Positions 2,597 to 32,041 of a stretch of DNA of 32,041 bases are shown piece after piece. The stretch comes from Clostridiaceae bacterium. GTDB lineage: Bacteria; Bacillota; Clostridia; DSM-8532. The notes beneath the pieces are model-generated. The model was given only the letters and a program-made list of their open reading frames with translations, had not been told where the DNA came from and ran no database searches. Both the position numbers and the translations under genes were made by a program. The stretch is taken from the NCBI GenBank assembly GCA_012516065.1, contig JAAYXD010000008.1:1-32041 (forward strand), given 5' to 3'. The first letter of the stretch is position 1. Each line of letters starts with the position of its first letter.

Positions 2597-2607
2597 CCAT
2601 AACCCTC

Positions 2608-2704
2608 CTCATCTCTCAGGATTTCTCCTGCAGGAATTGGCACCGTGGCATTACGCCGGTTGCCGGGTTTCATAGGGCACAGTCCCTCCACCTCTCTTGA
2701 TAAG
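2608..2704 (-). ncRNA. SAM-I (S-box) riboswitch upstream of metK
   Basis: Read on the minus strand, this stretch carries the S-box signature: CTTATCAAGAGAGGTGGAGG at the 5' side, then GAAACCCGGCAACC, GGTGCCAATTCC and GAGAGATGAG in canonical order. P1 forms between CTTATC (2699-2704) and GATGAG (2608-2613). SAM binding stabilises P1, frees the downstream terminator and turns metK off. Its position before the SAM synthetase gene matches the known regulon of this riboswitch class. Confidence 0.97.
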
Positions 2705-2734
2705 GAAAAAAACAGTATTTATATTTCCTTGTAA

Positions 2735-30570: not shown

Positions 30571-31203
30571 TTAAGCCTTAACGGAATCTTTAATCGCGAC
30601 AACGCCGCCCCTTGGCCCGGGTACGGCACCCTTAACCAGCATCAGGCCCCTGTCGGCGTCAACACGTACCACTGTCAGGTTCTGTACCGTCACTTTATCA
30701 ACGCCCATATGCCCGGGCATTTTTTTGCCCTTAAAGACACGGCTCGGATCCGAGTTTGCGCCCATCGATCCAACGCCCCTGTGATACTGTGAACCATGCG
30801 ATTCACGTCCCCGCGAAGTCCCAAAGCGTTTAACCGTACCTTGGTAGCCCTTGCCTTTTGATATTCCCGATACATCAATCTTGTCGCCTTCACGGAACAT
30901 ATCTTCAACTTTTATCTCCTGGCCTACCTCATAAGCATCAATATTTTCAAGCCTGAATTCCCTGATAAATCTTTTCGGTTTGATTCCCGCTTTTTCGAAC
31001 TGGCCCTTCATGGGTTTGTTCACTTTTTTTTCGCTGATATCTTCAAATCCAACCTTTAAAGCACAGTATCCGTCGGTTTCCACCGTTTTCTTCTGAATAA
31101 CCGATACCGGCCCGGCCTGGATTACAGTAACCGGAATCAATTTTCCGTCATCCGTAAAAATCTGTGTCATACCTATTTTTTTGCCAAGCATGCATTTTTG
31201 CAT
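30571..31203 (-). CDS. rplC: 50S ribosomal protein L3 (uL3)
   Basis: L3 starts 50S assembly and sends a loop to the peptidyl transferase centre. The 210-aa product begins [20 protein letters not shown] and has [40 protein letters not shown] and [20 protein letters not shown], the loop containing the usual methylated glutamine position. GGAGGG lies about 9 nt before the ATG at 31201-31203. It is 57 bp after rpsJ. Confidence 0.98.
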
Positions 31204-31260
31204 ATATATTCCCTCCTGTCATTGGTTCGGTCATTAAACCGAACTTAACATTTTGCCTGT

Positions 31261-31572
31261 TTACAGTTTGATTTCGATGTCAACACCCGCAGGCAAATCC
31301 AGCCTCATAAGGGCATCTACCGTCTTCGGGGTAGGAACCAGGATATCTATAAGCCTCTTATGGGTTCTCATTTCAAATTGCTCACGCGAATCCTTATATT
31401 TGTGCGGTGCACGCAAGATTGTTATTACTTCTCTCTTTGTCGGCAGAGGTACTGGCCCTGAAACCTTTGCGCCTGTCCTTTTCGCGGTATCGACAATTCT
31501 CTCCGCGGATTGGTCCAAAATCTGATGATCAAAGGCTTTCAACCGAATACGAATTTTTTGTTTGTTCGCCAT
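31261..31572 (-). CDS. rpsJ: 30S ribosomal protein S10 (uS10, NusE)
   Basis: S10 is part of the 30S head and, as NusE, couples transcription antitermination and NusG to the ribosome. The 103-aa product begins [20 protein letters not shown], has [20 protein letters not shown], and ends [14 protein letters not shown]. The ATG at 31570-31572 has GGAGG about 7 nt upstream. It is the first gene of the supercluster and lies behind a leader of about 340 nt with its own terminator-like hairpin, so its entry into the operon is likely regulated. Confidence 0.98.
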
Positions 31573-31915
31573 ACATATGCCTCCTAACATGTGCCTTAAT
31601 CACAGCAATACGCCGGTCAAAACACTATACTGTTTTCTCCGGAACGTTTATCCGGTTGTGTAATGACGCAACAAGTTTGTTTCTGTACACCCAGCCGGGT
31701 GTTTCATGCCGGTTCATATTAAAAACCCAGGACAGACAAGCTAAAAGGCTCGCTAAACCTGGGCTCTGCAACAAACATACTCTACGTGCAAAAAACGCAT
31801 TCAAGCAGAATGTACAGTGACTTGTCGCCCGGTTTCTCTGAATCGGACATTCTCCGTTGAAGTTCCCCGTTCTAAGCCGGCCATCTTCAACTTCATCGTT
31901 AGCAATGTCACAACG
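31573..31915 (-). ncRNA. structured 5' leader of the S10 operon
   Basis: The predicted transcript starts near 31915 and runs about 340 nt before rpsJ. It contains ACACCC/GGGTGT (31687-31702, 4-nt loop), CCGGA/TCCGG (31639-31655), a terminator-like hairpin at 31719-31763, and near its 5' end two mutually exclusive pairings, GTTGAAG with CTTCAAC or TGAAGTT with AACTTCA. No ORF of convincing start is present. A ribosomal-protein or other attenuator is inferred; I cannot match it to a known leader family by eye. Confidence 0.5.
31719..31763 (-). terminator. leader terminator (attenuator) ahead of rpsJ
   Basis: On the minus strand CCCAGG (31758-31763) pairs with CCTGGG (31726-31731). Inside, GCGAGC can pair with GCTTGT using G-U pairs, and a TTTTT run (31721-31725) follows. 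It lies between the promoter and rpsJ, so it can only act within the leader. Confidence 0.65.
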
Positions 31916-31921
31916 GGCATA

Positions 31922-31950
31922 ATTATACTATAAATATTTTCACGTGGCAA
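31922..31950 (-). promoter_or_regulatory. sigma-A promoter of the S10-spc-alpha supercluster
   Basis: Minus-strand TTGCCA (31945-31950) and perfect TATAAT (31922-31927) are separated by 17 nt. Transcription would start near 31915. The upstream flank is A/T rich, as in strong ribosomal promoters. Confidence 0.88.
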
Positions 31951-31995
31951 GTGGTTTTACAAAAATTTTTCCGAATTTTCGCTGGTATTATTATT

Positions 31996-32021
31996 GTTTC
32001 CGTTATTGTACAATATGTTCC
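31996..32021. repeat. solo copy of the TATTGTACAATA repeat
   Basis: GTTTCCGTTATTGTACAATA (31996-32015) followed by TGTTCC is the reverse complement of the unit seen at 2829, 2884 and 5320. It contains the exact 12-bp palindrome at 32004-32015. It lies about 45 bp upstream of the -35 box of the S10 promoter; no inverted partner is seen within the window. Confidence 0.7.
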
Positions 32022-32041
32022 AAATACAATTGTTTTTTATA

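Follow-up and report, generated by a model that had tools for sequence, protein, structure and literature searches.

The Firmicutes S10 leader as a candidate transcription attenuator ahead of rpsJ in a Clostridiaceae bacterium

Why is a terminator-like hairpin placed between a strong promoter and the first gene of the S10-spc-alpha run? An earlier note on the DNA of a Clostridiaceae bacterium had described such a hairpin within an untranslated leader and had suggested that it attenuates the genes downstream. We examined this suggestion in the window (the whole analyzed stretch of 32,041 nucleotides) and by comparison with related leaders.

Leader layout and terminator

The promoter is of the sigma-A type (TTGCCA-17-TATAAT, positions 31922..31950, minus strand), agrees with 11 of the 12 consensus bases, and is kept in relatives. 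A scan of positions 31200-32041 found no second promoter-like site on the minus strand. Counted from a presumed start close to 31914 up to the ATG of rpsJ at 31572, the untranslated leader spans about 342 nt on the minus strand (about 340 nt in the note) and includes the Shine-Dalgarno sequence AGGAGG (31580..31585, minus strand). The rpsJ gene (encoding S10; 31261..31572, minus strand) is 93% identical to the Acetivibrio straminisolvens locus and heads the S10-spc-alpha run. The run comprises about 30 minus-strand genes, from rpsJ through a gene with an L17-like N-terminus, with gene names judged by eye from N-termini, and the gene number given earlier is thus about right. The leader as a whole folds better than its own shuffles (z = −2.4; 2 of 100 shuffles). 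An upstream open reading frame acting as a sensor was rejected by eye, as the 5′ AUGs have neither a Shine-Dalgarno sequence nor frame conservation.

The terminator-like hairpin with its T5 run is indeed present inside the leader. It consists of GCCCAGGTTTAGCGAGCCTTTTAGCTTGTCTGTCCTGGGT followed by TTTTT (31721..31764, minus strand; U5 at 31725-31721), has arms of the form GCCCAGG...CCTGGGT, and folds with −20.4 kcal/mol. A simple terminator scan missed it because loops were limited to at most 8. When the rpsJ upstream regions of 31 genomes of the order were compared, together with named genomes, every one of the 31 order loci (L116-L146) proved to have an intrinsic terminator at the same site, after the aptamer-like domain and before rpsJ, and promoter, core, terminator, and gene follow each other in the same order in 31 of 31. 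This shared placement says more than the above-chance fold. The hairpins in the order are of the GCCCAGG type and mostly carry U runs of 4 to 6, with two having weaker tails; genera differ in the distance from terminator to ATG, which is either about 150 nt or about 90 nt.

The leader extends far beyond the order. Model R1, a covariance model of the core with helix P1, matches 220 of the 391 genomes of the class and also most Firmicutes S10 loci, and the leader lies directly upstream of rpsJ wherever checked. Eighty leaders were taken from many families, and about 110 related leaders were compared overall. Under a strict rule, a terminator was found in 80 of 107 leaders, representing 27 families; some of the leaders counted as lacking one are near misses, and a few others were mis-parsed by the script. 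The inner sequence of the terminator arms is variable, and their start is nearly always (G)CCC(A)GG or (A)CCCGG. Some leaders, in Clostridium sensu stricto, the Bacilli, and families f20, f27, f31, and f49, have no terminator; the core function of the leader family must therefore be something other than attenuation. Terminators of six leaders (L193, L208, L222, L223, L225, and L226, from families f15, f68, and f72) occupy the usual position but have in common a different inner stem, GAAAUCC..GGAUAUUUC, a pattern that looks like replacement of the terminator body in one piece.

Core domain and its relation to the RF03136 family

Upstream of the terminator lies a 5′ aptamer-like domain (31810..31914, minus strand), which matches model R1 with 122 bits in its own genome and is almost invariant among the rpsJ loci of the order. 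It contains two hairpins for which there is covariation. Hairpin P2 (31856..31891, minus strand; strands 31891-31885 and 31862-31856 plus an upper stem) has changes on both sides in 4 of the 7 lower-stem pairs, with 99% of cells in the order alignment paired. Hairpin P3 (31827..31848, minus strand; GUCCGAUUC with GAAACCGGGC) has changes on both sides at 4 pairs across families, and its own strands beat swapped strands in 300 of 300 draws. In the terminated state, the domain would be closed by helix P1, which pairs GUGAC (31911-31907) with GUCAC (31821-31817; 31817..31911 overall, minus strand); P1 is paired in 100% of cells, yet its sequence is nearly invariant.

A scan of Rfam, which the earlier note had proposed, gave a divided answer. 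A default scan of the window did not report RF03136; its only match was a SAM riboswitch elsewhere (RF00162, 91.8 bits, 2606-2706, minus strand), an ordinary example located upstream of the minus-strand gene 1235-2452, whose N-terminus reads as S-adenosylmethionine synthetase. A permissive scan found the S10-Clostridia leader RF03136 at 31822..31904 (minus strand; 33.4 bits, E = 4.3e−5). This 81-nt match covers P2 and P3 only and is full length (model positions 1-81), and its score lies 1.7 bits short of the gathering cut-off of 35.1. Of the 32 genomes examined from the same taxonomic family, 24 match RF03136 at E = 0.01, and four of them (G011, G023, G025, and G026) score 37-48, above the cut-off, which the Bacillus subtilis control also exceeds. 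The best-scoring of these four leaders (L091, 48 bits) precedes a second, divergent rpsJ copy (G011:C35:1016-1503; 66% identical) that is apart from the main S10 operon and could be contamination or a duplicated S10.

The window leader has the P2 and P3 hairpins and the conserved GAUGAAG and GGAG..AUGUC segments that are hallmarks of RF03136, and it lies, like RF03136 leaders, in the 5′ untranslated region of the S10 operon. From synteny and alignment, we consider its homology to RF03136 clear, even with a formally sub-threshold score. An S10 leader, fundamentally the same in structure as an earlier motif, has been reported in Firmicutes, including many clostridial cases (PMC7247131); the note's remark that such control is not generally documented for Clostridia is therefore only partly right. 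The terminator/antiterminator and the long-range helix described below are absent from the RF03136 model and were not found in the open literature searched. RF03136 (PMC7247131) and the window leader agree in their site upstream of rpsJ, their two-hairpin core, and their conserved bases, whereas the 81-nt model lacks P1, the terminator, the antiterminator, P4, and the long-range helix.

Two other S10 leaders invite comparison. In E. coli, L4 together with NusA promotes premature Rho-independent termination in the leader of the same operon (PMC10931766), but we found no sequence or structural match between that leader and ours, and the window scan gave no E. coli-type Rfam match, which is consistent with the note's view that the two structures differ. 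Like our leader, the rpsJ motif RLC-47-1 of Peptostreptococcaceae is a candidate leader upstream of rpsJ in Clostridia; it was published from relatives of C. difficile (PMC11109978) and is set beside the window leader here by its description.

Mimicry of rRNA was also considered. Sixteen comparisons of core, P4, and helix pieces with E. coli 16S and 23S rRNA gave no significant match that could hint at a binding protein, and the LSU rRNA of the bacterium's own genome was not found. The sole match, to 16S positions 1018-1056 (4 of 100 shuffles), was treated as chance because it was one of 16 comparisons and falls in a region that varies between phyla.

Alternative pairings of the leader

The 5′ arm of the terminator, GCCCAGG, is complementary to CCGGGC in the 3′ strand of P3. 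The element AACCGGGC (31827..31834, minus strand), which is that P3 strand, can therefore pair either within P3 or with GCCCAGGUU (31756..31764, minus strand; duplex −12.2 kcal/mol), and the terminator requires the same arm. In consensus folds cut before the 3′ arm of the terminator, CCGGGC of the core pairs with GCCC(A)GG; when the 3′ arm is included, P1, P2, and P3 plus the terminator replace this antiterminator. The switch of fold with transcript length is seen in both main subgroups, folded separately, and 94% of cells retain the antiterminator pairing.

In the window, the antiterminator is favored over P3 plus P1 before the 3′ arm (−51.0 versus −44.3 kcal/mol, a difference of 6.7), and after the 3′ arm the terminator folds are favored over the antiterminator (−59.9 versus −52.7 kcal/mol). 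Given these energies, a ligand that stabilizes P3/P1 by about 7 kcal/mol would decide for termination. In free-energy folds of the nascent RNA of the 80 terminator-bearing leaders, the antiterminator forms in 41 and P3 in 22; the energy argument is therefore suggestive, not uniform.

As a null set, we used 73 strong generic terminators from 400 kb of one family member. None of the 73 has GCCC at the start of its arm, and their duplexes with AAACCGGGC average −4.9 kcal/mol (best, −10.6). The corresponding family means for S10 leaders (5′ arm versus P3 3′ strand) average −8.4 kcal/mol (P = 7e−7 versus generic terminators), and the window duplex is stronger than all 73. Covariation of the antiterminator between families is weak (own pairs −8.42, swapped −8.04 kcal/mol; P ~ 0.04) because GGGC:GCCC hardly varies. 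Predicted from sequence, the antiterminator and the terminator are mutually exclusive, with covariation that is only marginal. Another candidate, a local antiterminator that would pair GUUUGUUA with UAACAAAC around the terminator arm, is attractive on visual inspection of the subgroup with ~250-nt spacing (alignment A1) but fails in the ~160-nt subgroup, and was rejected as a general solution.

Downstream of the terminator, the leader has a further hairpin, P4 (ACACCCGGCUGGGUGU; 31687..31702, minus strand), which is conserved through the class. In the order, the conservation of the post-terminator block, ACACCCGGC..GUGUACAG....CUUGUUGCG, equals that of the core, although this block is transcribed only on read-through. 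Also beyond the terminator, UGUACAG....ACUUGUUGC (UGUACAG at 31689-31683, ACUUGUUGC at 31676-31668; 31668..31689 overall, minus strand) pairs with the tail of the core, GCGACAAGU-ca-CUGUACA (31811..31828, minus strand). We call this long-range pairing the lock helix. In 90 leaders from 32 families, the lock helix averages −17.3 kcal/mol with its own strands, −14.6 with strands swapped between families (0 of 300 draws as good as the own pairs), and −11.5 with shuffled strands. Compensated variants include GCGACAG/CUGUCGU, GCGGCAG/CUGUUGC, GCGACUGUGCC/GGCAUCAGUUGC, and GCGGCAAGU/ACUUGC..CGCC. Comparison of relatives, the check that the note had suggested, thus reveals covariation in P2, P3, and the long-range helix, so the outcome that the note had named as a refutation, no covariation support in relatives, does not occur.

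Because the lock helix crosses the antiterminator in alignment A1, the two exclude each other; in the same alignment, there is room inside the lock helix for P4 and for the terminator once formed. The helix lies 15-90 nt before the Shine-Dalgarno sequence (about 80 nt in the window) and is also kept in leaders without a terminator, such as L255 and L256. Some leaders (L189, L250, and similar ones) have another hairpin at their end, UCGUACGU..ACGUACGA, directly next to the Shine-Dalgarno sequence; it is possibly a translational expression platform.

The P4 motif GACACACCCGGC..GAGUGU recurs in the P2 loop of Bacilli (L051, L044, L067, L030, and others), and one clostridial leader (L118, family f1) has GACACACCCGGC-A-GAGUGU downstream of its terminator. 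The Bacillus S10 leader, which is also the RF03136 control match, thus shares the P2/P3 core and a P4-like element with the family of the window leader. It differs in carrying P4 in the P2 loop, in a core that abuts the Shine-Dalgarno sequence, and in having neither terminator nor long-range helix. The common string and the association with the same leader suggest that the two P4 copies are homologous, and convergence on one ligand is possible.

Proposed regulation and competing explanations

We propose, with a probability of about 0.62, that this version of the Firmicutes S10 leader works as a transcription attenuator, which mediates feedback by a ribosomal protein and terminates transcription when its 5′ domain is stabilized. 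The attenuation suggested earlier is supported by the comparison, in which the terminator is conserved and its 5′ arm is complementary to the upstream aptamer hairpin. By default, the nascent RNA would form the antiterminator, and transcription would proceed into rpsJ. A repressor, most likely one of the operon's own ribosomal proteins in excess, would bind and stabilize P1/P2/P3, freeing GCCCAGG for the terminator hairpin, which would end transcription at 31725-31721. In read-through RNA, the long-range helix would re-tether the core to P4 near the ribosome-binding site, probably for control of translation or stability. Default read-through, termination on 5′-domain stabilization, the ribosomal-protein ligand, and the second control by the completed fold are the parts of this scheme that we infer. 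L4 would be the likeliest single ligand, a guess by analogy from the E. coli precedent and the ligand-prediction rule in PMC7247131.

Would a terminator without any specific ligand account for the same leader? It could be a fixed partial terminator, or one tuned generally by NusA, NusG, or elongation rate, with the aptamer-like domain acting only on translation or stability of the read-through mRNA. The core, P4, and the long-range helix are retained in leaders lacking a terminator, and the core therefore serves some function even where nothing is terminated; in Bacilli the core abuts the Shine-Dalgarno sequence. However, the complementarity of the terminator's 5′ arm to P3 is under a constraint much tighter than termination alone would impose, and the consensus fold changes as the transcript lengthens, both of which make this reading unlikely. 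A better prospect, though still short of even odds, is control in two stages, in which the terminator is gated by the 5′ domain, while the site truly bound by the ribosomal protein would be the completed fold, made of the core and P4 held together by the long-range helix, and would affect how translation is initiated on the read-through mRNA. The P4 motif shared with the P2 loop of Bacilli and the covariation of a helix so near the Shine-Dalgarno sequence across 32 families point in this direction, but in the window about 80 nt separate helix and Shine-Dalgarno sequence, and the protein site on the completed fold is putative. Should binding require P4, the ligand would have no chance to act until the terminator had been passed, which would count against attenuation.

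The two remaining explanations concern what the hairpin terminates and what the leader senses. The upstream genes lie outside the window, which leaves room for the hairpin to end their transcripts while rpsJ is driven otherwise; the only near-consensus promoter, however, is located ahead of the hairpin, a position that it keeps in relatives, and with no other minus-strand promoter-like site between 31200 and 32041, we regard this as very improbable. A small-molecule signal would fit the high conservation of the core bases, but the position directly upstream of rpsJ, seen wherever checked, is that expected of a ribosomal-protein leader, and the curated Rfam class is a ribosomal leader; a riboswitch is, in our judgment, the least credible reading.

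Returning to the attenuator, we tentatively suggest a broader and rather doubtful model, in which the S10 leader is a bipartite aptamer whose P4 piece, located in the P2 loop in Bacilli, lies beyond the terminator in Clostridia and is re-tethered by the covarying long-range helix. Such a leader would first attenuate with only its 5′ half and later, in RNA that has been read through, control translation as a completed ribosomal-protein site. The core belongs to a known leader family; judged by the Rfam model and the open literature searched, the novelty lies in the attenuator found across the class, in the long-range helix, and in the relocation of P4; the supplementary alignments of the discovery papers may already hold parts of them.

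The S10-spc-alpha run encodes about half of the ribosomal proteins together with SecY, Adk, Map, and RpoA. One terminator placed ahead of the whole run would act as a master valve on the making of ribosomes across much of the class Clostridia, and a cell could switch off about 30 ribosome-related genes by one RNA. Our comparison supplies concrete, mutable base pairs for this switch and extends the catalogued 81-nt family to a full regulatory unit. It also depicts one leader family in which the expression platform was exchanged, and a conserved subdomain moved, between Bacilli and Clostridia.
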